Source of the DNA: a virus
Direction: 5' to 3' (one strand)
DNA length: 35,429 nt
Virus record (IMG/VR): IMGVR_UViG_3300031673_000238
Location: 1-35,429 of that record
Position 1 is the stretch's first letter. Every line of letters begins with the position of its first letter. A program made the translations under genes and the position numbers. The notes under the pieces are model-generated. The model saw only the letters and a program-made list of their open reading frames with translations, did not search any database and had not been told where the DNA came from. Of the stretch, positions 3 through 35,429 are shown one piece after another.

Positions 3-380
3 CTACCGATTCAAAGCTATAGAAAAATTACTCCCCATACCCTCACGAGCCGATTTTGCGTTACTATGTACATCGCAGAGCGACTGCCAGTTAGTGCGAT
101 CCCAAAAGAGAACGGGATCGCCGCGGTGCGGAATGATATGATCCACATCGGTCGCCGGAGTCAACTTCCCTGTGCTCTGGCATTCGACGCAAAGCGGATG
201 TTCGTGGAGCCACACCTCGCGAGCCTTGCGCCATCGAGCGTCATACCCTCGCTGACTGGCGTTGCCGCGGTTACGGTCGATTCGTTTATACATCGCTCGG
301 CGGTGCGCGGCGCAGTATCCTTCGTTGGTGAGCGTCACGCATCCCGGCTGTCTGCATGGTCGTTTCGGCCTTCTCGGCAT
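3..380 (-). CDS. HNH endonuclease, terminase-associated type
   Basis: A 125-residue HNH nuclease of the kind that sits beside terminase genes in HK97-like phages, where it assists DNA cleavage during packaging. Visible motifs are two paired Cys/His knuckles at the N-terminus (C9, C14, C23, H26), then HPLCVEC (61-67), the DVDHIIPH core (78-85), N97 and the CDVH ending (102-105). The last three form the beta-beta-alpha metal fold with the catalytic His at about 81. The ATG at 380 has GGAGG four bases upstream. The gene ends two bases from the window edge, so the terminase genes probably follow just outside; that placement is inference from other phages. Confidence 0.93.
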   Translation of the reverse strand: MPRRPKRPCRQPGCVTLTNEGYCAAHRRAMYKRIDRNRGNASQRGYDARWRKAREVWLHEHPLCVECQSTGKLTPATDVDHIIPHRGDPVLFWDRTNWQSLCDVHSNAKSAREGMGSNFSIALNR

Positions 381-5468: not shown

Positions 5469-5501
5469 TTATATCCCCAGCAGCAGCGGATTCAAACCTG
5501 G

Positions 5502-6428
5502 TCAGGTCTTGTTCTGATCCCACACACGCCCGTCAAGCAGGCGACCGGCTGCTTTTTTGCCGACCTCCACCAAATACGCCTCGCCGGTATCAGGGTCAAT
5601 ATCTCGACCGTTCCAGCCGGTATGTCCTTCAAACCAAGTTCCGTCGGGAGAAAGTACTCCGAAACTTTTTGTTTTTGCGCCTTCAGGCTTTTGACTTTTA
5701 AGTATATATTCTCCCCACTGTTTAAAGTAAAATGGCACCCCCGCTTCGATACACTGGTCACGGAGCGAGCGCACCCAGTCGGGATGACAGGGACGGGCGT
5801 TCGGGCCGGATTCGCCGCCACAGACGACCCAATCAATAGGTGTCTTACCAGAAGATGTTTTGAACATAGGGTCTTCACAGCCACCAGGATAGTCTTTACA
5901 GTCATCACACCATCCACATCCACCCAATCTTAAATTCATCAATCCAAGCATCGGTTCAACACTCAAACCGAGTACCGGCCAGTCGCCGTATTTACGGAGT
6001 TTGAGCAGCTCCGGGATGCGCTTGTCCGCCATTTCCTGATTTTCAACCGAGGCGAGAAACCACCAATTCGGCATCCAATAGTTGCTGCCATAGAGACATT
6101 CGATAATGCGCTCTGGTCGTTTCGTCGGGATAATGAACGTATGACGCTGGCATCGCGCCATAATTTCAAGAGCCTCTTTGCGCCATTTATCCGCTGCCTC
6201 ATGGAAGAAATCGGTAATCGAGCCGACGATTATCCGCTTCGGTTCTTTCCAGTGGAGCGGGGCATTGAAGGTCGCGTCTTTCGCCCGCCTGACTTCGCCG
6301 GGTTTCAGACCCAGCCGTTTCCAGAATTGTTTTGCATAGCAGTACTTGCAACCGGGCGACACCGGATCGCAACCCATCCACGGATTCCAGGAGGCGTCCG
6401 CCCATTCGATGTTCGTCGATTCAGCCAT
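5502..6428 (-). CDS. DUF5131 / phage Gp37-Gp68 family protein, radical-SAM-like
   Basis: A 308-residue member of the phage Gp37/Gp68 family (DUF5131). The N-terminus has the family signature NPWMGCDPVSPGCKYCYA with cysteines C20, C27 and C30, resembling a radical-SAM iron-sulfur site with a wider first spacing. Later motifs are IIVGSITDFFHE, TKRPERI, LGLSVEPML and DWVVCGGESGPNARPCH, all typical of the family. A second cysteine group C..C..C follows LRLGGCGWCDDCKD. Function is unknown; radical chemistry on nucleic acid or nucleotide is inference. ATG 6428 shares a base with the preceding stop (TGATG), so it is coupled to the upstream gene. Confidence 0.9.
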   Translation of the reverse strand: MAESTNIEWADASWNPWMGCDPVSPGCKYCYAKQFWKRLGLKPGEVRRAKDATFNAPLHWKEPKRIIVGSITDFFHEAADKWRKEALEIMARCQRHTFIIPTKRPERIIECLYGSNYWMPNWWFLASVENQEMADKRIPELLKLRKYGDWPVLGLSVEPMLGLMNLRLGGCGWCDDCKDYPGGCEDPMFKTSSGKTPIDWVVCGGESGPNARPCHPDWVRSLRDQCIEAGVPFYFKQWGEYILKSQKPEGAKTKSFGVLSPDGTWFEGHTGWNGRDIDPDTGEAYLVEVGKKAAGRLLDGRVWDQNKT

Positions 6429-6715
6429 CAGTTCCCCCGCTCGATCGCCTTTGCCATTATGGCGCGCGTGAAGATGTGGCCGAGGTGGTCCTCGCTGGTG
6501 TCGCCGTCCATATACAGGTCAATGTGACGTTGTATGCGGTCGAGGTGGTACAGTATCCCTTTGTCGCGCCAGCCGGTGAACCCCTTGTCGTGGCCCTCCT
6601 CCATCACATCCTGCAGCACCTGTATCGTTCTCCACGGCACCAAGTCGTAACAATCCTCGATGAACCGAACCCAGATCATCATCCAACCATCGCGTCTGCC
6701 CTCAATCTGAGCCAT
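6428..6715 (-). CDS. DUF5664-like (dATP/dGTP diphosphohydrolase N-terminal type) protein
   Basis: A 95-residue helical protein whose second half (HLDRIQRHIDLYMDGDT, then DHLGHIFTRAIMA) follows the pattern of the DUF5664 / MazG-like pyrophosphohydrolase domain, where paired helices carry acidic residues for metal-bound nucleotides. It might adjust nucleotide pools during replication. The match is by pattern only and the acidic active site is incomplete by eye, so hydrolase activity is uncertain. ATG 6715 has GGGGAGG seven bases upstream and overlaps the upstream gene by 14 bases. Confidence 0.7.
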   Translation of the reverse strand: MAQIEGRRDGWMMIWVRFIEDCYDLVPWRTIQVLQDVMEEGHDKGFTGWRDKGILYHLDRIQRHIDLYMDGDTSEDHLGHIFTRAIMAKAIERGN

Positions 6716-6986
6716 GTGTTCCTCCCCTCTTCTGTCCGGTAACCATGAGAGAGAATTTCCCGTTTGGTATAAATCGTGGCTCTTCGTCTCCCAACGCTGT
6801 TATCTCATCCATACCGAGATGTATCTCCGCCTGGTGTATTTTTGCCCGCTCGAGTATTTTTATAATTTTCGCTTTGATTTTATCGGCGTTTTTTTGGGTG
6901 GTGTGCAGATAGTCGTCATACGGCTGTCCGTGTCCTGCGGCGTTTCCTTCTGTGTATTGAATTACTTTCGTATCATTCATGTTCAT
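6702..6986 (-). CDS. Hypothetical early phage protein
   Basis: A 94-residue protein I do not recognise. It has a mostly helical middle (KNADKIKAKIIKILERAKIH, about 33-52) and a beta-rich end with ITALGDEEPRFIPNGKF. There is no signal peptide, membrane segment or cysteine pair. ATG 6986 was chosen because GAGGAG lies seven bases upstream; an in-frame ATG 24 bases earlier lacks this. It is part of the early operon and overlaps its neighbours at both ends by 14-18 bases. Confidence 0.75.
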   Translation of the reverse strand: MNMNDTKVIQYTEGNAAGHGQPYDDYLHTTQKNADKIKAKIIKILERAKIHQAEIHLGMDEITALGDEEPRFIPNGKFSLMVTGQKRGGTHGSD

Positions 6987-7003
6987 CAGTGTCTCCTCTT
7001 CTT

Positions 7004-7204
7004 TTACCACTCCCTTACACCCTTCGTTTTTCTTGGTTGTCGCCTGCTATAATGGCGGAGCCCATTCTTATCCATCCAACTAAATATCTTTATCGTTATA
7101 TCAGGGCTCGTCGACAAGTCCATCCCGATATAAAGCGGTTCAATAGGTGGTTTTGGTTTACATCGTATCGGCGGTGGTACTGGATTTGACGCTTTCTTCC
7201 CCAT
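7004..7204 (-). CDS. Small basic hypothetical phage protein
   Basis: A 66-residue protein with a proline- and lysine-rich start (SNPVPPPIRCKPKPP) and a basic end (RHYSRRQPRKTKG). Residues 23-45 (EPLYIGMDLSTSPDITIKIF) look like a short beta region. It is not recognised. ATG 7204 follows a strong AAGGAGGTGA, and the gene overlaps the next one by 18 bases. A short nucleic-acid-binding role is possible from its charge only. Confidence 0.65.
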   Translation of the reverse strand: MGKKASNPVPPPIRCKPKPPIEPLYIGMDLSTSPDITIKIFSWMDKNGLRHYSRRQPRKTKGVREW

Positions 7205-7210
7205 ATCATT

Positions 7211-7381
7211 TCACCTCCTTAATTCCCGTCGCACTTCCCCGGTCATGTCCGCCGGGAAGATCACCCGTTTCCCTACGATGCGGATCCCGGGCAGGCTTTC
7301 GAGACGGCTCCTCTTGCGTGTGCTGTTCGCCCGCAGGGTTGTCCGGCAGAGGCCGCGCCCGATGTTGACTATTTCGGTCAC
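7211..7381 (-). CDS. Small winged-helix/AlpA-like protein, GTG start
   Basis: A 56-residue frame that begins at a GTG overlapping the previous stop (GTGA) and ends in AGGAGGTGA, so its last codons form the ribosome site of the next gene. It has an alternation typical of short phage DNA-binding proteins: TLRANSTRKRSRLESLPGI then RIVGKRVIFPADMTGEV, resembling the turn and wing of AlpA/excisionase-like folds. A 72-residue frame overlaps it (7206-7424) but is almost all polar and basic, so I prefer this one. Function as an excisionase or regulator is inference. Confidence 0.55.
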   Translation of the reverse strand: MTEIVNIGRGLCRTTLRANSTRKRSRLESLPGIRIVGKRVIFPADMTGEVRRELRR

Positions 7382-9532: not shown

Positions 9533-9800
9533 ATGTTCTGAATGCAGCAAAGAAGTGAGCGATAAGGCGGGTTCCTGTCCTCATTGCGGAGCACCCATTT
9601 CAACATCCGATGTAACATTGGTATTATGCTGGAGTTGTAAAAAAGAGTATCCAGAGAATCTTGATGCCTGTCCTTATTGTAAAAAAGGCAGATATGTAGG
9701 GGTTGACTTATTCAAAAGCATTGGATCGCTCCTTAAAAACGGCGGCATCCTTGTTATCGTGATCATCCTTTTTATTGCTTATTACAAGGGTTGCATGTAG
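9519..9800 (+). CDS. Zinc-ribbon membrane-anchored protein of the lysogeny operon
   Basis: A 93-residue protein with two zinc-ribbon knuckle pairs (C6/C9 with C20/C23, and C37/C40 with C51/C54) followed by one membrane helix (GGILVIVIILFIAYY, 75-89) near the C-terminus. It is translated from inside the end of the repressor gene and its stop shares a base with the integrase start, so it is expressed in lysogens. A membrane protein made during lysogeny might exclude superinfecting phages; that is inference from position and topology. Confidence 0.75.
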   Translation: MALIECSECSKEVSDKAGSCPHCGAPISTSDVTLVLCWSCKKEYPENLDACPYCKKGRYVGVDLFKSIGSLLKNGGILVIVIILFIAYYKGCM

Positions 9801-10846
9801 TGCCCGCGCCGACAGTCTACAAACGAAAGAACTCCCGTTGGTGGTGGATCAGTCGCATCTCGGTCGACGCCGACGGGACCCGCCGCCGTGTCCTGCTCTC
9901 CGGCAAAAAGCTCGGCGTCGATGTGGTCAACCACACCCGCGAACAGGCCCTCGATGTTGTCGCCCATCACTACGGCCTGACCGGCAACGCCGCAGTCACA
10001 GACCAGACGCCCGGCGCCGAAACCCTCGCCTGGTTCACCGCGGAAACCCTGCGCCGCGTCGCCCACGAAGGAAAGAGCGACGGCACCGCAAAGGAATACC
10101 GTATCGCGCTCGCACACCTGTCATCCACCTTCGGCGCCGACACGCCCTTCCGCGAGCTCACCCGGAACGCAGTCGGCATCCTGCAGGACGCCCTTCTCCG
10201 GTCCGGCGATTGCCCGGTGACGGTCAATAAGGTGTGCCGTCACATCCGCGCCGCGCTCAATCGCCTAATTGACGACGGCCTCATCGAGCGCAACCCGTTC
10301 CAGCGGTTCAAGGCCCTCGCCGAACACCACCCGGAACACCGTCACCTGTCCCTCGACGATATCGGTCGCTTCCTTGCCGCCGCCGAATCGTCAGGCAATG
10401 AGCCGGGTTTCCGCATCGCCCGCATGTATCTCTACACCGGCCTGCGCCGTCGCGAGCTTCTCGAGCTGCGCCGCGACGCAGTCGACCTTGACCGTCGCCG
10501 TATCCGTGTCCCGAATATCAAACACCACAGCCACCGCGAGCGATGGATCATACTCCCGACGCCGGCGCTCGACGATCTGCGCTGGTTTCTCGCCCGCAGC
10601 GACAGCGACTGTCCGCTCCATGTCTGCCAGCCGGACACCTTGACTCACTGGATCAAGGGCTACCTTCGCGCCGCCGGTCTCCCGGAATCGTTGCACCTGC
10701 ACAGCCTGCGCCATACCTTCGTGACCCACGCGCTGCTCTCCGGCGAGTCCCCCTGGAAGATCAAGGACCACCTCGATCACAGCTCGATCACGGTCACCGA
10801 GGGATACGCCCACACCGAGCCGGAAGAAGTGCACATAAGGTATTGA
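9800..10846 (+). CDS. int: Tyrosine integrase
   Basis: Site-specific recombinase that joins attP to the host tRNA-Leu gene. From the chosen GTG (348 residues): a GC-rich arm-binding N-terminus, a core-binding SAM-like domain (about 75-170) and a catalytic domain with Arg in TGLRRREL (about 216), Lys in NIKHH (241), HSLRHTF giving His 301 and Arg 304, His in LDHSS (327) and the nucleophile Tyr in GYAHT (336). GTG 9800 overlaps the preceding TAG by one base and has AAGGG nine bases upstream; a TTG at 9791 is the alternative. Third gene of the lysogeny operon, ending just before attP. Confidence 0.95.
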   Translation: MPAPTVYKRKNSRWWWISRISVDADGTRRRVLLSGKKLGVDVVNHTREQALDVVAHHYGLTGNAAVTDQTPGAETLAWFTAETLRRVAHEGKSDGTAKEYRIALAHLSSTFGADTPFRELTRNAVGILQDALLRSGDCPVTVNKVCRHIRAALNRLIDDGLIERNPFQRFKALAEHHPEHRHLSLDDIGRFLAAAESSGNEPGFRIARMYLYTGLRRRELLELRRDAVDLDRRRIRVPNIKHHSHRERWIILPTPALDDLRWFLARSDSDCPLHVCQPDTLTHWIKGYLRAAGLPESLHLHSLRHTFVTHALLSGESPWKIKDHLDHSSITVTEGYAHTEPEEVHIRY

Positions 10847-19895: not shown

Positions 19896-21108
19896 GGTCC
19901 TGTACCTCCCCCATATAGCCGTTGATGATGTAATCCGTCGAGCCGTCGTCGACGCTCAGCGCGTCCGCAGCCTGCACCGTATACCGCATTCTATTCGTAC
20001 CGTCGATCACCGTGTCCGGGATCCCGGCAACCGTGAGCGAGTTCCAGCTGTCCGTGTCGTCCTCATACTCCCATCCATCGATCGCCCATACCGACCGTCG
20101 CTCCATCACCAGCGAGGTCCCGTCCGACTCGTAGACGCTCAATGTCGGGTACCCTTTCGTCCCGGCGCGCAGGTAGGGAATCGTCGCGATAAAGGCCGGC
20201 GTCGTATCCTTGCTGAAAGTTCTGCCGTCCGCGTTCGCCCAGGTGATCTTGCCGGGACGGTTATTGACTGCAAAGGCGTCCGATGCCACAGCGTTCGCGG
20301 CGTCGCCCCCCGTCGGCGATGCGTCGTACGGCGTGATGCGCAGGTACACTGCTACATCGAGCTCCGACTTCCCTGAATCCTCGTAGGAATCCCACACATA
20401 GGTATGGCTCTTCCCCGCCGCCGAGGTGTTCAGCCCGGTGAGACCGTCGCCTCCCGATCCTTCTGTCGCTGTGTACCAATCGCCCGTTTCATCGTCCGGG
20501 TCGTAGTTCTCGGAGTACTCCACCACCACGCGGCTCTCGGTGCTATCATCGTTGATAAGTCTATAGGTGACTGTGATGTCCCCGTAGTACTCCGGGAGCT
20601 CGCTCTGCGTCTCCTCGCCCGATGGCACCTCTGTTCCGCTGATGACAAGCCCTTCATCCTCATCGACGATGGTGTCGCCGCCGGTGGCCGTCCTGTCGAG
20701 GTTGTTCGACTGCACCCCGTAGTCGATGCCCGGATCGGTGCACATGGTCACGGAGAGAGCGCTGTAGTCGACCGGGTTATCCGCCTCGTCGCGGGCCCGT
20801 ACCTTGAACTTGTACGGTGTATCCACCGTGAGGCCGGTTACCTCAACGCTCGCTCCCCAGACAGCGAAGGTCTGCCATATCTCGCCGGAGTCGACCGTGC
20901 CGTCCGCCTGGACATATCCGGCAGGGCTGCCGTCCTCCTCGACGTAGATCAGGTAATCACAGACATCGGAGTTGCTGTTCTCATCCCAGGTGATGGCGAT
21001 CGCCCCGGTGTCGTGGCTGACAAAGGTCGGAGTTCCGGCGATATTCGCCGCTGCTGTTGTCGACGCTCCCTCGCTTGGCCCGACAAACTGTCCTGATTTT
21101 TTAGCCAT
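19888..21108 (-). CDS. FN3-domain tail fibre-like protein
   Basis: A 406-residue acidic beta protein. Residues 25-130 are one FN3 domain (AIAITWDENSNSDVCDYLIY, GASVEVTGLTVDTPYKFKVR). A region with DITVTYRLINDDS and YVWDSYEDSGKSELDVAVYL follows, typical of Ig-like phage tail proteins, and a C-terminal domain carries WANADGRTFSKDTTPAF. It lies downstream of the tail hub and probably belongs to the tail tip or fibre. Start overlaps the preceding small gene. Confidence 0.8.
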   Translation of the reverse strand: MAKKSGQFVGPSEGASTTAAANIAGTPTFVSHDTGAIAITWDENSNSDVCDYLIYVEEDGSPAGYVQADGTVDSGEIWQTFAVWGASVEVTGLTVDTPYKFKVRARDEADNPVDYSALSVTMCTDPGIDYGVQSNNLDRTATGGDTIVDEDEGLVISGTEVPSGEETQSELPEYYGDITVTYRLINDDSTESRVVVEYSENYDPDDETGDWYTATEGSGGDGLTGLNTSAAGKSHTYVWDSYEDSGKSELDVAVYLRITPYDASPTGGDAANAVASDAFAVNNRPGKITWANADGRTFSKDTTPAFIATIPYLRAGTKGYPTLSVYESDGTSLVMERRSVWAIDGWEYEDDTDSWNSLTVAGIPDTVIDGTNRMRYTVQAADALSVDDGSTDYIINGYMGEVQDRG

Positions 21109-21325
21109 CGATCCTTCTTAGTGAACCGTCGTTTTGCACCCGGTATTTTTTCTTGCCGAAGATCACAATCCCGTCGGCGTTCCGCGCGTGTCTCTTGTCA
21201 CGAACCAGCCTTTTGCCCGAGCGCTTCACCGGAAATGAAGGCCGATATATCTTCACCGTGTGTTCGACGAGCAGGTTCCGCTTATAGAGCGGCGTCGCCG
21301 GTGTGCCTGGTGTCGTTTCGTTCAT
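21101..21325 (-). CDS. Small basic hypothetical tail-region protein
   Basis: A 74-residue protein rich in Arg and Lys (KRSGKRLVRDKRHARNADGI) with a beta-hairpin-like end (VIFGKKKYRVQNDGSLRRI). It is not recognised. Start and stop both overlap neighbours (ATGA with the methylase, seven bases with the FN3 protein), so it is a working part of the operon. It might be a minor tail component. Confidence 0.7.
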   Translation of the reverse strand: MNETTPGTPATPLYKRNLLVEHTVKIYRPSFPVKRSGKRLVRDKRHARNADGIVIFGKKKYRVQNDGSLRRIDG

Positions 21326-22464
21326 ACCGCCACCTCTGTGTTATGGAACAGGTTGAGCTGCTGGAGTTCAAGGGCAATGCGCTTCGTTGACAGCTTGTAA
21401 TAGTCGGGCGACAACTCTATCCCGATAAACCGTTTCCCTTGCTTTATCGCTTCCGATGCTACCGTACCCATGCCAGAAAACGGGTCGAGTACAATTCCAT
21501 CAGGTGGGCATCCGGCATCGATCATCGGCTCGACCAGTGCTTGAGGGAACATTGCAAAGTGCGGCTCACTCGACGGCTCGGTAGGAATGTCCCAGATACA
21601 ACGGCGGTTGCGACCATTGAGATTAGGGCGCATATTTCTTTCTCTTGCTAAACTATTTGCACAAGCCATTTCTGATGGGTCTAATTTTTCTTGTATTGGT
21701 TTTATCTTATAATCTCCACCCCATCTGTCAAGGTCATAGATATAAGGTTCTCTCTGTTGTTTAAACCAATAATCCCCCTGCTTCACAAAGAAATAAACGG
21801 GCTCAAAGTCCACCGTGAAGCGGTCGCTTGCCGATGAGGGCATACAGTTCCGCTTATACCAGATAATGGTATTGCGCCGTATCATGCCAAGGTCATCTGT
21901 CATGCGGATGGCGAAGCGTTCGGGGATACCGACGAGGGATTTGGCGGGGATTCCGGACATGCCTCGCTTTGGATAGCCCGCGCCACCCAAATTCCTTTTC
22001 CCGATAGTTGGGTCTCCACCACCAGCTTGATTCGGATTACTATAACTATCCCCGATATTCACGAACATCGTGCCCGTATCCTTCAGCACCCGCCTGCACT
22101 CCGCCATTATCTGCATGAGATGGTCGATGTAGAGCTGGAATGTCGGCTCGAGTCCGAGCGATCCACGCCATGCGCCGCAGAGGGAACAAAAAGCTGAGTC
22201 ATTTGGAGGAACTGGCCGGTAAGTACATCCATCTGGATTTTCATTCTTCTTCCCCTGATTCTGCCCACCAGTTAAACCAGAACTATGCTTTAATATCCAC
22301 AGGTGTTGGCATCCCTCTTTCGCATCCCAAACTATCGGCTCAAGACCGTAATCACGGAGTCCCCAGTATGGCGGACTCGTCACCACGCAGTCCACAAAGC
22401 CGTCCGGCGCCGGCTTTAACAAGTCGAGGGTGTGTCCCAGGTATATGTTGTCAGGTTCAAGCAT
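21322..22464 (-). CDS. DNA methylase, N4/N6 (beta-class) type
   Basis: A 380-residue amino-methyltransferase acting on adenine N6 or cytosine N4. It has motif IV TSPPYWG (29-35) near the N-terminus and motif I DPFSGMGTV (327-335) near the C-terminus, the order of the beta class. The target region between them carries CQH and CSLCGAW, a possible zinc site. RRNTIIWYKRN and CIWDIPTEP are usual in this family. It probably protects phage DNA from restriction. Placement between tail hub and fibre genes is unusual. ATG 22464 has GAGG seven bases upstream. The middle is AT-richer than its surroundings. Confidence 0.92.
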   Translation of the reverse strand: MLEPDNIYLGHTLDLLKPAPDGFVDCVVTSPPYWGLRDYGLEPIVWDAKEGCQHLWILKHSSGLTGGQNQGKKNENPDGCTYRPVPPNDSAFCSLCGAWRGSLGLEPTFQLYIDHLMQIMAECRRVLKDTGTMFVNIGDSYSNPNQAGGGDPTIGKRNLGGAGYPKRGMSGIPAKSLVGIPERFAIRMTDDLGMIRRNTIIWYKRNCMPSSASDRFTVDFEPVYFFVKQGDYWFKQQREPYIYDLDRWGGDYKIKPIQEKLDPSEMACANSLARERNMRPNLNGRNRRCIWDIPTEPSSEPHFAMFPQALVEPMIDAGCPPDGIVLDPFSGMGTVASEAIKQGKRFIGIELSPDYYKLSTKRIALELQQLNLFHNTEVAV

Positions 22465-22466
22465 CC

Positions 22467-25322
22467 CTATACCTCTATCGCCGTTACCGTTATCTCGCAG
22501 GAGTCCTGGTTCGTATCGAGCCCGATGATCTCCCATTTCTTGTAGTACGCTGTCGCCGCGCCGAACAGGTCGTCGACACGGTCGTCGCGGATGTTGATGA
22601 TGTCCCCGAGCTCATGGCTGACCGCGGTGAATAGTGTCTGTATGGTCGCCGTATACCACCGTTGAGAGGTTCGCTCAATGAGGTACTGCAGGAGCTTCGA
22701 CGCGGTCGCCTCGTCGCGGATGTGGGTCGCCTCATAGGTGAGCGTCCTGGTCGACCCGAAGGTCGTGTAGCTATCAGCGCAGAGGGTCGCGAGTTCGGTG
22801 AGCGTCCAGCTGCACTCGAGGTTCGCCTCGTCGAGGTTGGTCGCCACGCTCCCGGCGGTCCCGAGCCCGTTGTCCATGTAGAGCACATCGTCGAAGTTCC
22901 CCGAGGCGTAGTTCTTCCGGTAGCGCAGGATGAAGTCATTGAACACATCGTCGAGACTCACCCGCCCGATGCGCAGGCTGTTCGGCAGGATCGGGTTGGT
23001 GGTGAACGAACCGCCCGATGGCGATCCGGTAGCGTCGAAGATATCCAGCCCGGAGGGAACGTCGGTCCCGCTGACCGAGAAGTTGGCTGTAGCGGAGAAG
23101 GTCACCATCTTGAGAGTATCGCTGTAATCCCAGAACACGCGGCTCCTGCACTGCTGCGCGAGCGCATCGAGGTGACTGTGCGCTTTATTGCGGTCGAGGA
23201 TCTGGAAGGCGTACTCCCACGCTCCCAGCGCGACCGCCGCGGTGTCGAACGATGTGGTGTTGATGTCCGCCGCGGCAAGATTCATTTCGTCGCGCGCGAA
23301 GGATTCGATGACATGGGACGGGCATTCGATGAGCGATGAGGGTGTGCCTGTGACAGTCCCGGAGACGTCATCAGCCTTGCCTTGTCCGAGAGCATAAATT
23401 TTATTGACGAGTCCTGCGCTAAACCCGCGTACGATACAGACATTCCTGAATTTGATTGGGTAATTCGGATCAAACCCATCAAGAAAATCACCCTCTTGCC
23501 ACTGCTGACCGTATATTCCTATGATAGTGTTTACTTTTGAATTTGGGATTTCAGCATGATCCAGAACATAGACATGCTGGCCATTCGACGTAATATGTTC
23601 CTCCACAATCTGAAGTTCAGTGTTGTCATCTTTCCAAACGCCATGTCTGAATTTTATACAATTACTATCACCATATCCGTTTAGCGCAAAAGTTTCGATC
23701 ACGAAGGCCATGGTATCAAACATACCGGAGACGCCCCATGACATATCGAAGGAATTTAAAATTAAATAATCACTATGTGAATTAATTGTCGCCCAATCAG
23801 ATGGATCGTTATTTTGGGAGTTAGTATAATCTATTATACCATCAGTTCCGCCCATATAGGGTATCTTTACAATGATTGGGTTAATGGCAGGGTTTGGATA
23901 ATCTTCAGTAGTCATATAATAGGGAAAGTCTGCATCATCGGTTCCTTTTGATATTCCATATTTTCCCGTAGATATATTTGTAACTATACATGGGATAATG
24001 GTATAGGTTTCAAGCCCCCCATCCCATAACATCATAAAATCAGCTATTTCTTTCAACGCGTGAGAAGCGAAAAGAAAATAATTGTATACAGTATCTACAA
24101 GGAGACCGCGGAAACATTCGCCTCCGCTACATATAGTATCATTTGTTTCTTCTGTAAAATATCCAGCATGTTCCCTGAATTCTTTTACTGACGTAAAATC
24201 TCCATAAAGAATCGGTATGGGTTTACCAATATTTTCTGATGAACAATAGGGGTAATCTTCTTTCGTTACTATATCTCGAGGAATCTCCGGGTCATGCTTG
24301 AAGTTATTATCCTTGATCACCAGGTCGAGGGTACTGTCGGTCACCGCGTAATCGTCGATAATGAACTTCCTGATGAGCTGCATCCCGGTGTAGGTCGTGG
24401 CAACAGGCTCGTAGTCGAGGTAAATCTCTACCTCTTTATTATCGAGTTTCTTTGAGTTATACCGCAGGGTCAGTGTGGCGCTAATCGCATCGAACTGCAC
24501 ATACTCGTTGCCCGATGGATCAGCGGAGTTCGCGTAATCCTTTTTCGACAGGAGGATGAACTTCACCGAGCCGCCGCTGTTTGCCACTATCAGGTTGCGC
24601 CCGGCCTCGTTCAGGCGGATGTAGTTCGTCCCGCTCTGGAATTCGGAGCTCTCCCAAGGCTCATTGAGTATCTCGGCCGTGTAGGCGCCGCTCGAAGCCC
24701 AGCCGTCGAAATCATTGAAGGTCCCGGTGTCGAGGCTCGACCAGTTCCCCTCGATCAGATAGAGCTCGAAGTCGGTCGCAGAAGCGTCGCCGTTGCCAGG
24801 CAGCGGGATCACCGCCTCCTCGCAGGTCGTTATCCCGGCAGGCACATCGAAGTGGAGGAAGCCACGGTAGTTCGTGAAGATTTCGCTTCCGGGGCTGTAG
24901 GTCCGCCCAACAACAATGAGCACTGTGGAGAAGCTCGACGCTGTCGTGGCATTGCGCACATCGAGATATGTGTCGCCGTAAGCCCCGGCCTTCACCAGCC
25001 TGCCCGCGCCGAGGATGGTCTGCCCGCTCTGGACGGTATACTTCGGCGACCGTTCCGCTTCGGTGGCGAGGGTCAGCCGCTGGCCGAGAACAAGGTTCGA
25101 CATGTCAAGCCCGGACACCGAGCTCATGCCGCCGAGACGGTCGATGCGCTCGCTGATGGTCCCGAGACGTTCGATGGTGTCGACGAAGGCTTCGGCGCTC
25201 CCGCTGTCGGTCTGCGCCTTTGTGGCGAGGAACAGGTCAGCGTCGGGGATCCGCACGAAGAAGCGCGGACGAGAGCCCTGCTTTTTCGAGCCGGTGGAAA
25301 CGTTGGTGGTCAGGGTCTTCAT
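22467..25322 (-). CDS. Tail hub / tip protein
   Basis: A 951-residue tail tip protein. Residues 1-110 form the start of the hub. A DNRLRE-like carbohydrate-binding-type module (about 115-290) is inserted, containing ASATDFELYLIEG and FILLSKKDYANS. The hub resumes with GKPIPILYGDFTSV (about 360-375) and later SHVIESFARDEMN, and ends with HELGDIINIRDD and a final beta strand, as in many siphovirus baseplate hubs. A stretch at about 23.4-24.3 kb is distinctly AT-richer, suggesting segment exchange. ATG 25322 overlaps the stop of the upstream membrane gene. Confidence 0.85.
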   Translation of the reverse strand: MKTLTTNVSTGSKKQGSRPRFFVRIPDADLFLATKAQTDSGSAEAFVDTIERLGTISERIDRLGGMSSVSGLDMSNLVLGQRLTLATEAERSPKYTVQSGQTILGAGRLVKAGAYGDTYLDVRNATTASSFSTVLIVVGRTYSPGSEIFTNYRGFLHFDVPAGITTCEEAVIPLPGNGDASATDFELYLIEGNWSSLDTGTFNDFDGWASSGAYTAEILNEPWESSEFQSGTNYIRLNEAGRNLIVANSGGSVKFILLSKKDYANSADPSGNEYVQFDAISATLTLRYNSKKLDNKEVEIYLDYEPVATTYTGMQLIRKFIIDDYAVTDSTLDLVIKDNNFKHDPEIPRDIVTKEDYPYCSSENIGKPIPILYGDFTSVKEFREHAGYFTEETNDTICSGGECFRGLLVDTVYNYFLFASHALKEIADFMMLWDGGLETYTIIPCIVTNISTGKYGISKGTDDADFPYYMTTEDYPNPAINPIIVKIPYMGGTDGIIDYTNSQNNDPSDWATINSHSDYLILNSFDMSWGVSGMFDTMAFVIETFALNGYGDSNCIKFRHGVWKDDNTELQIVEEHITSNGQHVYVLDHAEIPNSKVNTIIGIYGQQWQEGDFLDGFDPNYPIKFRNVCIVRGFSAGLVNKIYALGQGKADDVSGTVTGTPSSLIECPSHVIESFARDEMNLAAADINTTSFDTAAVALGAWEYAFQILDRNKAHSHLDALAQQCRSRVFWDYSDTLKMVTFSATANFSVSGTDVPSGLDIFDATGSPSGGSFTTNPILPNSLRIGRVSLDDVFNDFILRYRKNYASGNFDDVLYMDNGLGTAGSVATNLDEANLECSWTLTELATLCADSYTTFGSTRTLTYEATHIRDEATASKLLQYLIERTSQRWYTATIQTLFTAVSHELGDIINIRDDRVDDLFGAATAYYKKWEIIGLDTNQDSCEITVTAIEV

Positions 25323-26107
25323 ATCCCCTCGACTCCGGCGATTGCTATCATAATATCCCTGCTGTACTGTTTGCCGGTTATATATTTTAACGCTATATTA
25401 TGAAGTGCATGATTGTATACGAGGTTCCCGTCGACGATGTTGAACGTATCCGCGATGTACGCCGGTCGTTTGTCCGCGATCACACCATCGCTGTTTTCGC
25501 CATTCCGGTAGGCGGTCAGTATATCGGGCGAGGTCAACCCAACAAGGTCGATGAACCTGCAATCCTTTGCACGGTAGGCTATCGCGCCGATGTCGTTGCT
25601 GATTATCCACTCCTCCTTTGCGACATTCGCCTGCAGCCAGTCGCCCATCTCGCAGCGAATCACCTGGCATGGTGCGAGCCTCGCCGCCTGATACCGCATC
25701 CACTGCACCGATCCGTAACCCTGCCACAGCAGGACGGCGCAGACGATCGCCGCCACAGAGCGTCTTTTCAGCGCGGGGATCCCGGCGATGAGCATGAGCG
25801 GAAACAGGTGGACCGTGTAACGCACCCAATCGGAGTTCGGCCCCGCGAGACAGGACGCGACGGAAAGCAGGATATACACCCCGAGCCAGCGCAGACGGCG
25901 GTCGATGACAATCCCGGCGACCGCTATCAACGGGGCCGCGAGCGCGAACCTGTACCATGTCATGAGTATATTCAGCGGCTGCGAGTGGTAGTATGCCAGC
26001 AGGTTTTTCGCGTAGACCGAATGGGGGAGGAGAGTGCCATAGTACAGGTATCGCGTCGCGTAATAAAGAGCGATTAAAATGAATACTATCAGGTGTCTGG
26101 GTTTCAT
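25319..26107 (-). CDS. C-terminal half of a split GT-C-like membrane glycosyltransferase
   Basis: A 262-residue polytopic membrane protein. It begins KPRHLIVFILIALYYATRYL, directly followed by YYGTLLPHSVYAKNL, the lumenal motif that normally comes right after the membrane helix next to the REG/FEG motif in arabinosyl/mannosyltransferase-like proteins. Several more helices follow, then a soluble end (WIISNDIGAIAYRAKDCRFI, LVGLTSPDI). The matching first half lies 833 bases upstream, beyond the transglutaminase gene. ATG 26107 was chosen because homology starts there; an ATG at 26158 would overlap the upstream gene. Confidence 0.8.
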   Translation of the reverse strand: MKPRHLIVFILIALYYATRYLYYGTLLPHSVYAKNLLAYYHSQPLNILMTWYRFALAAPLIAVAGIVIDRRLRWLGVYILLSVASCLAGPNSDWVRYTVHLFPLMLIAGIPALKRRSVAAIVCAVLLWQGYGSVQWMRYQAARLAPCQVIRCEMGDWLQANVAKEEWIISNDIGAIAYRAKDCRFIDLVGLTSPDILTAYRNGENSDGVIADKRPAYIADTFNIVDGNLVYNHALHNIALKYITGKQYSRDIMIAIAGVEGI

Positions 26108-26108
26108 A

Positions 26109-26939
26109 TCAATTCCAGTGATATAAATATCTATAAATTCCTTCAAAATTTCGTACATCTCTTTTCCCTATATCATCATAGGTTATTGAGCCATCCCACG
26201 TCGAGGGAAACAATTCCATCGGGTAGTACAGTTTCTTGTTGCCCACCCATATTACGCTCGGATGAATAACCATATAACTCATAAAATCAATAGGTTTAAC
26301 GGGATAATTACCAATGGCTCTTTCGGGATAAACGGGGAACCCATTTGATACTACATCATAAGGTATATTGTTTATCACTAATATGTATAATTCTGAATAT
26401 GATAAATACTCTCCTTTATACAGATACATTACATTGAAAGTCGGGTCGGAAGCGTACCATTTGTCTTTATACCAGAATTCGATGGTAGCGTGGGAATCGT
26501 ATGGTTGTTTGTTATCGGTAAAGTAACCGACATAACGTGCGGGAATCCCTTGTGTTTCAAGGGCTGTGGCATAGAGCGCAACTAAACCACCACAGTAATG
26601 ACCGACCGATTCATCTCGTATTGAGCACGTGTACGAATTATCGAAATCTAAATAGTTAAACCCATCAGGCGTTCTTTTCAAGGGTACATTTTGGTAGATA
26701 TGGTTTCGTATGTTTATTGCCTTGAGGAAATTATCGTCGGTATTATTAACTGTGTTTTTAATGATCCATGCTAATTTTAACATTTTAATAGTATTTGTGC
26801 TATTATCTTCAACTTTTAATATCCTCTTTTCAGCCTCAGAAAAACGCTCCATAACTCGATCTTTAGCCCTATATGCTTGTTTCAGACTAAATGATGAAAT
26901 CAATATTGACAACAGTATAAGCAGTCGAATTTTATTCAT
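26109..26939 (-). CDS. Transglutaminase-like cysteine protease-fold protein
   Basis: A 276-residue protein with an N-terminal signal anchor (LLILLSILISSFSL, 6-19) and a transglutaminase-like core. The catalytic Cys is in GHYCGGLVALYATALETQG (Cys 116), His in SHATIEFWYKDKWY (His 150) and Asp in SDPTFNV (Asp 165). It should act outside the cytoplasmic membrane; whether it cross-links, hydrolyses or transfers is unknown. The gene is much AT-richer than its neighbours and sits with one-base gaps exactly between the two halves of a membrane glycosyltransferase, so it appears to be a late insertion. Confidence 0.9.
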   Translation of the reverse strand: MNKIRLLILLSILISSFSLKQAYRAKDRVMERFSEAEKRILKVEDNSTNTIKMLKLAWIIKNTVNNTDDNFLKAINIRNHIYQNVPLKRTPDGFNYLDFDNSYTCSIRDESVGHYCGGLVALYATALETQGIPARYVGYFTDNKQPYDSHATIEFWYKDKWYASDPTFNVMYLYKGEYLSYSELYILVINNIPYDVVSNGFPVYPERAIGNYPVKPIDFMSYMVIHPSVIWVGNKKLYYPMELFPSTWDGSITYDDIGKRDVRNFEGIYRYLYHWN

Positions 26940-26940
26940 G

Positions 26941-27504
26941 TCACACCCGATGGTGTCTGATCGTCATGTACCAGACTGGCAACACCAGCATCCCCTCGAA
27001 CCGCATAAGCACCACGAGGACGGTGAGCACCGCCGAGAATACCATCCGTTTATCGATGAATGTCCAGTACGTCCACATCACTAACAGCGCCGCGAAGGGC
27101 ACCGTGTCCATGCCGAGCGCAGACCAGCCCGATATGAAACCGTGCAGTGAAGCGATGAGACCGAGCAGGATCGCCGCCGGCTGCCACAGACCGAGATGGA
27201 CAGCCGAGAGGAACACGAACGCCGCTATCGCTCCCACAGCCGCCATATTCAGGATGAATGACACCAGCTCCAGATTGTGAAAACCGATCCGATAAAATCC
27301 GGCGAGCACCACTGTGAACAGCCATGAGCTCGCGGCGTCGGCGCGTTCGCCCTCATTGAACACCAGCCCGCGTCCTTCGGCGAGATTGACCGCATACCGG
27401 TAGGTGATGTAGCTGTCGTCGTACTGGTTGCGCCAGAGGGAACCTGTCCCGGCATACAGCGCTGCGATGAGTATTATAGCAATAATGGGAAGCAGATATT
27501 TCAC
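26941..27504 (-). CDS. N-terminal half of a split GT-C-like membrane glycosyltransferase
   Basis: A 187-residue membrane protein. After a first helix (YLLPIIAIILIAALYAG) it carries the catalytic-loop pattern of GT-C enzymes: YDDSYITYRYAVNLAEGRG with the Asp-Asp pair, then FNEGERADAASSWLF. Further helices lead to LMRFEGMLVLPVWYM, and the frame stops at RHHRV. Family members continue here into another helix and a YYG-LLP-YAK motif; that part lies in the separate gene at 25319-26107. ATG 27504 overlaps the stop of the distal tail gene, so it is stitched into the tail operon. Confidence 0.82.
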   Translation of the reverse strand: MKYLLPIIAIILIAALYAGTGSLWRNQYDDSYITYRYAVNLAEGRGLVFNEGERADAASSWLFTVVLAGFYRIGFHNLELVSFILNMAAVGAIAAFVFLSAVHLGLWQPAAILLGLIASLHGFISGWSALGMDTVPFAALLVMWTYWTFIDKRMVFSAVLTVLVVLMRFEGMLVLPVWYMTIRHHRV

Positions 27505-27896
27505 TGCACCTCCAGTGTCATCTCACAACGAACAAGGTCGCTTGAAAGCTTACGAAAGGTTATCGACCCGTCAACGATGCACACCACACGGTCGACCTCG
27601 CTCTCATCGCGCCAGGTGAAGTATTCGACCGCGCCAAGCACCGTATCGAGAAAGCTGATCATATCGGCCCTATCGGCCAGCGATTCTGAGCTTTCCCGCA
27701 CGATGGCTCCGAACTGCCAGAGCTGCTTGCTTGCGCCGAAGCTGGTAGCGTACCGCGTTCCGCCTTTCGAGCGCCTGGTAATCTGGTTGAACTCGACCGT
27801 CTCATCGGACCCGTCTAACAGGTGACCCTTGGTGTTGAACTCCAGCGTGGTCGTCGGAGTGGTCGCGTCCGGATAGTAAAAGAAGTTGTTCGCCAT
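27501..27896 (-). CDS. Distal tail / minor tail protein
   Basis: A 131-residue beta protein following the tape measure: FFYYPDATTPTTTLEFN at the start, GGTRYATSFGASKQLWQFG in the middle and FTWRDESEVDRVVCIVDG, typical of small distal tail (lambda gpM/L-like) proteins that join tape measure and hub. ATG 27896 shares a base with the tape measure stop; a GTG three bases earlier is possible. Confidence 0.78.
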   Translation of the reverse strand: MANNFFYYPDATTPTTTLEFNTKGHLLDGSDETVEFNQITRRSKGGTRYATSFGASKQLWQFGAIVRESSESLADRADMISFLDTVLGAVEYFTWRDESEVDRVVCIVDGSITFRKLSSDLVRCEMTLEVQ

Positions 27897-29974
27897 CACC
27901 CAACCGCCTTGAGGAGACGTTCGAATTCGGCGCTCTTGCGGGTACGGATGACATCGTCCACCGCCCTCGCTATCTCGTTCGTGTTCATGCCGCGAGCCCC
28001 TTCGCCGATGGAAATAGTGAGGCTCGATTGATCGGTGTACACCGCGCTCTTCCCGCGGGACCCTGACGGCAGGCTCGGCATACCGACTGCGGCGGTCGCT
28101 GCGGCTTTCGCTCCGACTGGCCCGCCGAGGATGTAGCCGATGAATCCGGCAACCGCCGCCCGGATCACCATCTTCTTTATCATCTGGTCAAACATGCGCG
28201 CGATGTTGGCGAACGAATTCCCCGACTGCTCGACCACTGACACCAGCGCGTTACTCCAGTATACCGCGAAGTTCGTGGCGCTCTGAATCATCTGCTGCGT
28301 TTCCGACTGCGCGATGATCTGCATGTTGAGTCTGTGCTTTTCGCGCGCGAGCTCGATGAGCTTGGTCTGCTTATTGTAACTTTCCACCTCCTCGCTGTAG
28401 CGCTTCACCTCGAGCTGACGCTGCTGTTCGAAGCCGGTGGTGGTGAGTATGATCTGTTGCTCTTTCACCTCACGCTTGAGGGAGATTATGTTGTCGCTGT
28501 ACTCCTGTGCATCATCTAACAACTTCTGATACCCCGCGTCGTTCTGATTAATCTGCGCCTGCGGTATCCGCGTGAAATCGGAGAACTCCATGGCCATGAC
28601 ATTCGCCGGCTTTTCAGGGGCCGCACCGGCGCGAGTGCTACGAGGTAATTGCATTTTTAAACCCATAGCATTTTGTGCCGAAGGTAAATCAACATTAAAT
28701 GCTGGCACATTTAATCGACCAATGCCTGCCCCACCAAACAACATTTTTAATCCACCCGGCAATTCATCCCTGAATGGTAAATCCATCTTCGGTAGATTTC
28801 GTCGACCTCCTTGCCCTGGATACATCCCCATCGGCATCGCCATACCATAAGGGCCGCCAGCGCCAACAGGTATCATTTTGCCTTTTGCAGCCATTTTACC
28901 CTGGCCATATCCGCCTACAACAATACCGGCGCCCGCGAGAAGCGCCCCCCCAAAAGGCGTTGCACCGATTACTGCAAGCGCCTTTCCGATAGTGACTAAT
29001 GCACTTGAAATCAAAACTAATTTGTTTATCGCAAATCCAGCGACAAACACACCTATTGCCGTCTGCAGCGCATCCTTGTGCTGGTAGATGTACTTCATCG
29101 CATCACCGATTTTATTGAGAGCCACATCGGCCTTCTGCTGTATCATTTTTTCGTTGGCTTTCACCCAGTCGTTCGCCATTTGAATGGCGCTGGTGAAATT
29201 AGGAAGGAGCGAGTTGCCGATGCTTTCAGATAGGTTGGTGATGTTCGCCCGCATGCGCTTGACCTGGTTGGCGTAGGAGTCGCCCGTACGGATAGCGTCG
29301 CCCTGAGCGTCGGCGGTCCCGGCGAGGATGAGGTTGTAGCGGAGTTGCGCCTTCTCGTTCTCCTTGAGCTGCAGCCAGTTCTTGGTGTACCCGTTACGGA
29401 GCGCTTCCTGCTTGAGCGCCGCTTCGGTGATGACAATGCCGTACTTCCGCACCGTCTCGTGATTGCCGACCAGCGCCGATGTGAAGTCGCGCAGGACATC
29501 GTCATCGACGGCGTTGTTGAACGAGGCGACATCGACCGCAAGGGTAACCAGCGCCTTTGACAGCTCGAAGCCCCGGTCGCGCGCGTATCCCAGCGGAACG
29601 AAGGTGTCCTGGAGGGTTGCCATCCATTTCTTAACATCCTGGTTGGCGCGCCCGACGCTTTTCCCGAACTCCTGCGCCCACCGGTTAGCGTCGCTGCTCA
29701 GATCCTTGAACACCACACCGAACTTGGAGTTGATCTCTTCGGCGTCTGATGCCACTTTGACGAGGCGGACCGAGAGGTACGCCGCCGATGTCGCGGCTGC
29801 CATTATCCCTATCGCGATTTTTTTGAACGGGATCTCGCGGTTCAGGTCTTTGAAACCCCCGCGCAGATCCCGGACCGTCTTGTTCGCCGCCTTGTTCGCC
29901 GCCGACAGGCCTTTGGTGTAGCCGCTCGACTGCAGCGACAGACGCACGAACAGATTCCCTACCGATTTCGCCAT
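27896..29974 (-). CDS. Tape measure protein
   Basis: A 692-residue protein that sets tail length and is carried inside the tail tube. Its start NLFVRLSLQSSGYTKGLSAA is typical. A helical region with FGKSVGRANQDVKKWMATLQ follows, then hydrophobic segments (FVAGFAINKLVLISSALVTI, GGALLAGAGIVVGG), a coiled-coil stretch (ISLKREVKEQQIIL to KLIELAREKHRLNM) and a C-terminal hydrophobic patch (VIRAAVAGFIGYILGG). Bases 28640-29010 (about residues 320-445, Gly/Met/Pro-rich) are AT-richer than the rest, suggesting a replaced segment. ATG 29974 has GAGG upstream. Confidence 0.92.
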   Translation of the reverse strand: MAKSVGNLFVRLSLQSSGYTKGLSAANKAANKTVRDLRGGFKDLNREIPFKKIAIGIMAAATSAAYLSVRLVKVASDAEEINSKFGVVFKDLSSDANRWAQEFGKSVGRANQDVKKWMATLQDTFVPLGYARDRGFELSKALVTLAVDVASFNNAVDDDVLRDFTSALVGNHETVRKYGIVITEAALKQEALRNGYTKNWLQLKENEKAQLRYNLILAGTADAQGDAIRTGDSYANQVKRMRANITNLSESIGNSLLPNFTSAIQMANDWVKANEKMIQQKADVALNKIGDAMKYIYQHKDALQTAIGVFVAGFAINKLVLISSALVTIGKALAVIGATPFGGALLAGAGIVVGGYGQGKMAAKGKMIPVGAGGPYGMAMPMGMYPGQGGRRNLPKMDLPFRDELPGGLKMLFGGAGIGRLNVPAFNVDLPSAQNAMGLKMQLPRSTRAGAAPEKPANVMAMEFSDFTRIPQAQINQNDAGYQKLLDDAQEYSDNIISLKREVKEQQIILTTTGFEQQRQLEVKRYSEEVESYNKQTKLIELAREKHRLNMQIIAQSETQQMIQSATNFAVYWSNALVSVVEQSGNSFANIARMFDQMIKKMVIRAAVAGFIGYILGGPVGAKAAATAAVGMPSLPSGSRGKSAVYTDQSSLTISIGEGARGMNTNEIARAVDDVIRTRKSAEFERLLKAVG

Positions 29975-29992
29975 GTATCGTTCCTCGTGTAG

Positions 29993-30172
29993 TTACCGCG
30001 CTGTGTTGGATCGCGCCTCGGCGTTTTTCATTTCGGCGTTTTCGAGTTCAAAAAACGCTTTCCATTCGGTCAGCTCGCGGCTGCTGATTTTTGAGAGCAA
30101 TTCCTTGACGGTCATCCCCAGTTCCCGCGCCAGCGCGAAATAGAACCGCCGCTCGGGATGACCGAACTTCAT
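29993..30172 (-). CDS. Tail assembly chaperone, DUF4035-type second frame
   Basis: A 59-residue frame matching DUF4035 phage proteins: ERRFYFALARELGMTVKELL, then SRELTEWKAFFELE and a disordered end. It lies between the first chaperone and the tape measure, the place of the lambda gpT part of gpG-T. Its ATG (30172) overlaps the upstream stop (ATGA) and lies in the -1 frame relative to it, directly after a run of eight A residues. It may be made by restart, by -1 frameshift fusion, or both. Confidence 0.85.
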   Translation of the reverse strand: MKFGHPERRFYFALARELGMTVKELLSKISSRELTEWKAFFELENAEMKNAEARSNTAR

Positions 30173-34615: not shown

Positions 34616-35429
34616 TTACTCTACTCCGTGATCCTGTGTCCATGTACCGAGAGTGTTTACCATTACCCACCGTACCGAGTCCATGGCGAGTAACTTAACC
34701 GTCCCGGCAACACTGCCTATGGCTCGATCTGCAACCCCGGCCGATGTAATTATCGAATCTCCGGAGGCCGCGATAATCCGTAGCGAATCGGCGTCGGCAA
34801 CAAAGAACGTGTAATTTAATCCGACCGCAGCAGTCGGAAGGGTCTTTACCCTTTTTGCGGTCAGCGGTCGTGACACGTACGTTGTTCCGGACAATGCGGT
34901 GTCTAATGTCTCATTAGTGTCATTTATTACAACACTTTCAAGATACGTTAGAGCACCAGAAAACGTACCGGTCGTAAACGCACCGCTGCTCGCTCCGCCT
35001 GCTCCGATGGTTGTATTGGCGATGTCCGTACCGTCTATCACGGCGTCAAACAGATACCCGCCGCTCGCTCCGGTGAATGAAGCCGCATCAGCGGTTGTAA
35101 TCGTCATCCGGTAGGTATCCCCATTGGAGCCGAAGAAGTCGATAACCGGGACGCCGGACACCATCTTGATCTGGAAAGAACTGTCCGTGCCGGCAGGAAC
35201 ATGCTCCATCGTCACAAGTACACCGGCCGTCAACCCATCCCCGATCGTCACTGTATTCGTCAAAGGAGCGGTCTCGCCGAATCCCGCAAGGGCGTCGAAG
35301 GTATACCCGCCTGATGCGCCGGTGAAGTTCATGGCGTCTGATGTGTCGAGATCAACATTACCAGTGGTTGTTCCTTCCTCCAGCGTGAACGAGGGCATCG
35401 TTACCGCATCATCGATATCCACCGTGCTC
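34616..35429 (-). CDS. Structural protein with repeated beta motifs (cut by window edge)
   Basis: The C-terminal 270 residues or so of a protein that continues past the window end; no stop or convincing ribosome site is seen upstream. It repeats FTGASGGYTFDA and FTGASGGYLFDAVID, then NTTIGAGGASSGAFTTGTFS, a pattern of beta-solenoid or fibre-like phage proteins. The last 100 residues (RPLTAKRVKTLPTAAVGLNY, SLRIIAASGDSII) resemble head-fibre or decoration endings. A head fibre or spike is the best guess. Confidence 0.7.
   Translation of the reverse strand, partial: STVDIDDAVTMPSFTLEEGTTTGNVDLDTSDAMNFTGASGGYTFDALAGFGETAPLTNTVTIGDGLTAGVLVTMEHVPAGTDSSFQIKMVSGVPVIDFFGSNGDTYRMTITTADAASFTGASGGYLFDAVIDGTDIANTTIGAGGASSGAFTTGTFSGALTYLESVVINDTNETLDTALSGTTYVSRPLTAKRVKTLPTAAVGLNYTFFVADADSLRIIAASGDSIITSAGVADRAIGSVAGTVKLLAMDSVRWVMVNTLGTWTQDHGVE

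Follow-up and report, generated by a model that had tools for sequence, protein, structure and literature searches.

A GT-C glycosyltransferase gene split by a transglutaminase-like gene in the tail operon of a temperate siphovirus-like phage

The Gtr glucosyltransferases of Shigella and Salmonella (gtrABC) are GT-C enzymes of temperate phages that serve serotype conversion. The locus described here is like the phage Gtr systems in that a temperate phage carries a GT-C enzyme whose expected target is a surface glycan. It differs from them in its location within a tail operon and in its division between two ORFs, and neither gtrA nor gtrB was recognised among the ORFs scanned. It may also be compared with the morons of tail operons, which are additional genes between otherwise adjacent, coupled structural genes, but here one accessory gene is nested within another. 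Phage-borne GT-C accessory genes are known already, and the present case is a variant of them, split and with a nested gene; no documented case of an accessory gene nested inside a GT-C accessory gene was found in the literature searched.

In structure, the best match of an intact phage relative of the enzyme is among the AftB/decaprenyl-phosphate-arabinofuranose transferases (GT-CA; 9dlf, PMC12041299). The activity of AftB requires the Asp of the DD motif, and the role of D62 has been described (PMC12041299). Like AftB, the phage enzyme has a DD motif after TM1, two juxtamembrane helices, and a C-terminal periplasmic domain. In contrast to AftB, the enzyme studied here is phage-encoded and made as two ORFs; identity to AftB in the structural alignment is about 18%, and the scores fall far below the cut-off of the AftB model. 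Pentofuranose-adding systems of three components (GT136) have also been described, one of them in a Caudoviricetes phage (PMC11127046). These may be likened to the present case by gene neighbourhood, namely that of the nearest cellular homologue of the enzyme (L018), beside which both a phosphoribosyltransferase and a flippase are encoded. Beside the phage GT-C gene, in contrast, neither was recognised among the ORFs scanned, and the phage would rely on a donor made by the host.

The tail operon and its interrupted gene

The window, i.e., the whole stretch of DNA analysed, is a viral contig of 35,429 bases, with the gene content of a siphovirus-like phage. The phage is considered temperate because a tyrosine integrase gene is present; a Cro/C1-type regulator is also encoded, and the other genes include those for a primase, an exonuclease, a major tail protein, a tail assembly chaperone, a tape measure, and a connector. 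The tail operon on the minus strand runs from the tape measure through a small tail gene and three ORFs, designated A, T, and B, to a large hub-like gene, and every neighbouring pair from the tape measure to the hub either overlaps or is 1 base apart. The features are:

9791–10846, plus strand: tyrosine integrase (Pfam PF00589, E = 4.9e-16)
27896–29974, minus strand: tape measure protein gene (PHROG 1535, tail length tape measure, E = 1.3e-20)
27501–27899, minus strand: small tail gene upstream of A, with a GTGA overlap with A
26941–27504, minus strand: A, N-terminal part of an AftB-like GT-C glycosyltransferase (187 aa, GTG start; TM1–TM6 by homology to the model)
26109–26939, minus strand: T, transglutaminase-like protein with an N-terminal signal or anchor helix (276 aa; Pfam PF01841, Transglut_core)
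25319–26107, minus strand: B, C-terminal part of the same GT-C glycosyltransferase (262 aa; TM7 onward and the C-terminal periplasmic domain)
22467–25322, minus strand: large hub-like tail gene downstream of B, with an ATGA overlap with B

The three ORFs lie where the original prediction had placed them, all on the minus strand. The two junctions read TGA-C-ATGAA and TGA-T-ATGAA, and both thus have the form TGA, one base, and ATGAA that had been described. ATGA overlaps had been reported at both outer ends; this holds for B and the hub gene, but the overlap of A with the small tail gene is GTGA. The longest ORF for B starts at an ATG at 26158, and the homology to the intact relative starts at residue 4 counted from the 26107 start. 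The Shine-Dalgarno-like sequences of T and B are weak, and, judged from these, translation of T and B would depend on re-initiation. A scan for promoters and terminators gave no result relevant to the split.

The same A-T-B arrangement is found, ungapped, in a second contig (L002), which is the same genotype in another record. The two contigs have zero differences across A, T, and B, and 1 substitution outside a chimeric-looking end of L002. Near that end, 27 of the 28 differences, including a stop codon, are packed into 64 bases (window 35069–35132), and this cluster is probably an assembly artefact of the contig end.

Related tail operons were retrieved by a profile scan with the hub gene. 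In L058, L059, L061, and L062, hub homologues of 37–45% identity follow the small tail gene, either immediately or after a short distance. The small tail and hub genes overlap by 1 base in L058 and in the L013 phage (G002; the same tail is present in L060 and L061). In L059 and L062, the two genes either adjoin or are separated by about 190 bases. Neither the GT-C gene nor T is present at the small tail/hub junction of L058, L060/L061, L059, and L062/L063, which represent four related phage lineages. Since related operons lack the A-T-B cassette at this site, it is an insertion between two coupled tail genes.

Some other features of these operons may be mentioned. In L062, ORFs of 306, 99, and 144 aa (5856–7226) lie directly upstream of the small tail gene, where the tape measure adjoins in related operons. 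The hub-like gene of the window (22467–25322) has an AT-rich middle at codons about 377–628 (GC 0.36–0.42). The two ends are 41–45% identical to the hub genes of L060, L061, and L062, but the middle has no match in them, which marks it as a swapped domain that may be receptor-related. The part of the window that separates the hub gene from the fn3 gene contains two genes (21101–22536), a small one and one for a DNA methyltransferase (N6_N4_Mtase). Because the hub and fn3 genes are adjacent in G002 and L059, these two genes look like a further accessory insertion in the same tail operon.

A and B as parts of one enzyme

A profile scan of viral contigs yielded the gene in uninterrupted form, as a single 456-aa ORF in L051 and its twin L050. 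By BLASTP, A matches residues 5–190 of the intact L051 protein (61% identity, E = 6e-74), and B matches residues 190–453 (49% identity, E = 2e-84). The matched stretches are adjacent and non-overlapping; taken together, A and B therefore account for the intact protein with zero loss. Joined A+B also matches unsplit bacterial proteins of about 480–550 aa, whose annotation is hypothetical or, in Legionella, glycosyltransferase family 39. Searched separately, A and B match the N- and C-terminal halves, respectively, of each of five bacterial proteins. On this sequence evidence, which far exceeds chance, A and B together make up one GT-C glycosyltransferase, A being its N-terminal and B its C-terminal part. 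The proposal that a transglutaminase-like gene splits a single GT-C gene is thereby borne out: the halves do not come from unrelated families, and no relative was found in which one half occurs alone as a complete gene.

The L051 phage is related to that of the window (35% identity in the connector, 36% in the next small gene, and 51% in an ORF near the contig start). Its GT-C gene also lies in the structural operon, directly upstream of the connector gene and not beside a hub gene. An ORF of 134 aa with a signal-like N-terminus (261–665) is found directly upstream of the intact GT-C gene, with a 1-base overlap. A more distant unsplit GT-C gene (4902–6386) follows apparent tail genes in another viral contig (L015), and GT-C accessory genes may be found beside tail genes in more than one case.

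A second split GT-C gene is present in L013, in which an ORF of 102 aa is followed by one of 71 aa and one of 321 aa. All three are open, and each has a purine-rich, ribosome-binding-like sequence. Once joined, the two parts of the L013 enzyme align with joined A+B from one end to the other at 37% identity (E = 3e-74). The break, at about residue 104 of A, differs from the A/B junction. The gene sits elsewhere in its genome, not at the small tail/hub junction. The 71-aa insert resembles a small membrane protein, for which neither relatives nor families were found. By eye, a hairpin followed by a T run may be seen after the second GT-C part (6580–6640), and the L013 cassette may carry its own terminator.

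Thus two ORFs make up the enzyme in the window and in L013, whereas GT-CA enzymes are single polypeptides, and one GT-C ORF is present in L050, L051, and every sampled cellular copy (about 20 homologues, all unsplit). In 297 genomes of the phylum of L018, each GT-C match lies in an uninterrupted open frame; these are 478–738 aa long, apart from one of 273 aa at a contig end.

The fold was assessed on the intact L051 protein. Its AlphaFold2 model (pLDDT 85.6, pTM 0.88) has the N-terminal helices and the large periplasmic loop 1 with juxtamembrane helices that characterise the GT-CA fold. In a Foldseek search AftB ranks first (9dlf, E = 7.5e-7), ahead of PglB and ArnT, and all 10 PDB matches with E < 0.001, including these three, are GT-C enzymes. 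The catalytic aspartate expected in periplasmic loop 1 is found in the DD motif D29–D30, located in A; both residues are invariant across the phage and Syntrophaceae set, and the second D is at least 90% conserved in 26 rows. Either half of the split enzyme should be inactive by itself. The NCBIfam AftB model NF041481 matches the N-terminal half (E = 1.8e-7), but the scores of A and joined A+B (27–30 bits) and of the L018 homologue (20 bits) are far from its cut-off of 1050 bits, and the L051 protein has no match to it.

In the L051 model, helices end at 109 and 186 and restart at 112 and 189, respectively. The turns between them (110–111 and 187–188) are about 2–3 residues from the split of L013 (108/109) and that of the window (189–191), in agreement with the prediction that the insertion falls in a loop between helices. 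If the enzyme is oriented in the membrane as GT-C proteins usually are, with the N-terminus inside and the DD motif outside, both turns would be cytoplasmic. The protein termini on either side of the breaks contain several Lys, Arg, and His residues. A terminates with FEGMLVLPVWYMTIRHHRV-stop, and B contains YYGTLLPHSVYAK. The T insert is flanked by an 8-bp direct repeat:

26952–26959, minus strand: CAGACACC, left copy, within the end of A
26092–26099, minus strand: CAGACACC, right copy, within the start of B

The two copies are in the same codon register, and the repeat could be chance, microhomology, or a target duplication.

So clean an insert, with a sharp change in composition, might point to an intron, an intein, or an assembly artefact hiding a normal contiguous gene. 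This is very hard to reconcile with the anatomy, since A has its own stop, the frame of B differs from that of A, and T is separated from the stop of A and from the start of B by only 1 untranslated base each. Moreover, no Rfam family reaches E = 1 at the insert of the window or of L013, the folding is ordinary (z = -0.33), and the same structure is present in a second contig. The single bases and the lack of an RNA family match rule out an intron for practical purposes.

The nested gene

T matches PF01841 with 43.1 bits (cut-off 23; E = 5.7e-11) over residues 62–166. The catalytic triad is found by sequence as Cys116, His150, and Asp165, in the motifs YCGG, SHAT, and SDPT, and a hydrophobic segment is present at the N-terminus. 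Single-sequence AlphaFold2 prediction gave no usable structural model of T (pLDDT 36).

The GC3 of T is 0.357, against 0.734 in A and 0.719 in B. The tape measure, small tail, and major tail genes have GC3 of 0.70–0.74. With its foreign composition, T therefore looks like a newcomer, while A and B look like long-term residents. Composition thus suggests that the insertion of T is probably recent.

Relatives of T are scarce. There were none in plasmids and only the sister contig among viral contigs, and in the 297 genomes of the L018 phylum there was one weak match (E = 6e-5). Neither the L013 record nor the ORF lists of the short L051 and L050 contigs contain a relative. Among 50,697 phage records, there were zero matches to window DNA 20000–30000, joined A+B, or T. 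Scans with one protein at a time (A, T, or the hub) recovered only the near-identical sister contig, whereas L013, L050, and L051 were reachable only with alignment-based searches.

The original prediction had also joined the GT-C enzyme and the transglutaminase, as a possibility, into one surface-modifying system. In such a single complex, the nested gene (T here, the small membrane ORF in L013) would be a dedicated partner made in equal amounts, as the strict interleaving and the stop-start coupling might suggest; the hydrophobic N-terminal segment and the expected Cys-His-Asp set of T would also fit. In the records examined, however, T accompanies neither the intact GT-C gene of L051 and L050 nor the split one of L013, which is divided by a different and unrelated ORF, and its composition is unlike that of its neighbours. 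The single complex is therefore improbable, and T would rather be an independent secreted or membrane-anchored transglutaminase-like protein.

State and role of the split enzyme

In the maximum-likelihood tree, the proteins of the window, L051/L050, and L013 form one clade (99/95), within which those of the window and L051 are sisters (100/99); the nearest outside row is the Syntrophaceae protein L018 (100/100). The splits in the window and in L013 are independent, because an intact copy lies within the clade, the break points differ, and the nested genes differ. With this recurrence, the anatomical claim is stronger than originally stated.

Relative-rate tests on the whole protein, split against intact, gave 40 vs 39 changes (χ2 = 0.01) and 50 vs 44 changes (χ2 = 0.38). 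The split copies thus show no acceleration relative to the intact copy, and in the tree the branch of the window protein (0.30) is shorter than that of the intact one (0.52). No strains differing in the sequence of A or B were found, the sister contig being identical there; third-position divergence from L051 also counts the time preceding the split.

These results bear on whether the insertion of T destroyed the GT-C gene, leaving T under selection and A and B as a young pseudogene of still-open fragments. The foreign, unameliorated composition of T (insertion probably recent) and the missing strong ribosome-binding sites for T and B speak for such a history. Against it, no residue was lost at the junction, start and stop codons are kept in both parts, the insert is at a helix turn that is probably cytoplasmic, the L013 gene is independently split at another helix turn with three ORFs open, and neither split copy is accelerated. 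The pseudogene is thus a possible but less likely outcome. Since the composition of T suggests a late arrival, the lack of decay may only reflect a young split.

A two-chain enzyme, on the other hand, is plausible because the rate of evolution is no higher in the split copies than in the intact copy. Clean breaks at helix turns on two occasions, the full sequence kept, start and stop codons at each break, and unraised rates favour a live enzyme, and a working two-chain enzyme is accordingly predicted with some confidence. Whether GT-C enzymes in this phage lineage were repeatedly made two-chain by unrelated genes inserted at cytoplasmic helix turns, such breaks being safe landing sites for accessory genes and the split enzymes active, is evenly balanced.

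The nature of the glycan modification may be approached through cellular homologues. L018 is encoded in a polysaccharide locus, where its neighbours include a decaprenyl-phosphate phosphoribosyltransferase (259.8 bits against an NCBIfam cut-off of 234) and a protein of the GtrA family (166 bits against a cut-off of 50), and the Legionella homologue also adjoins a decaprenyl-phosphate phosphoribosyltransferase. Among the window ORFs scanned, which leave out some small ORFs of a contig that is itself a fragment, there was no match to UbiA or GtrA, and no donor-synthesis gene was seen. By analogy, the best guess is that the GT-C enzyme transfers a pentofuranose from a donor made by the host to a glycan on the host surface. 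The locus is most likely a phage gene of the seroconversion type that sits in a tail operon and holds a second accessory gene within it.

The course of events that seems somewhat the best supported is as follows. A moron gene of a temperate siphovirus, for a GT-CA enzyme of the AftB-like pentofuranosyltransferase kind, would have entered between two translationally coupled tail genes. Its product would decorate the surface glycan of the lysogen or infected host with a sugar from a polyprenyl-phosphate donor of the host, and might serve seroconversion or superinfection exclusion. Later, the foreign gene T would have landed at the cytoplasmic TM6/TM7 turn, with the whole enzyme sequence kept and each part given its own start and stop. 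A and B would be made from one mRNA via stop-start re-initiation and would assemble in the membrane as a two-chain enzyme, to which A would contribute the catalytic Asp-Asp loop, and B the remaining helices and the periplasmic domain.

The cut elsewhere, by a different gene, in a related phage suggests that phages may repeatedly run this enzyme as two chains. If the halves are active, they would be natural split GT-C glycosyltransferases, cut at two helix turns and with an intact homologue as control, in which the assembly of polytopic GT-C enzymes from fragments would be directly testable. It would also follow that phage accessory genes can nest without destroying the first gene, and AftB-like enzymes would join the means by which temperate phages may change the surface glycans of their hosts.
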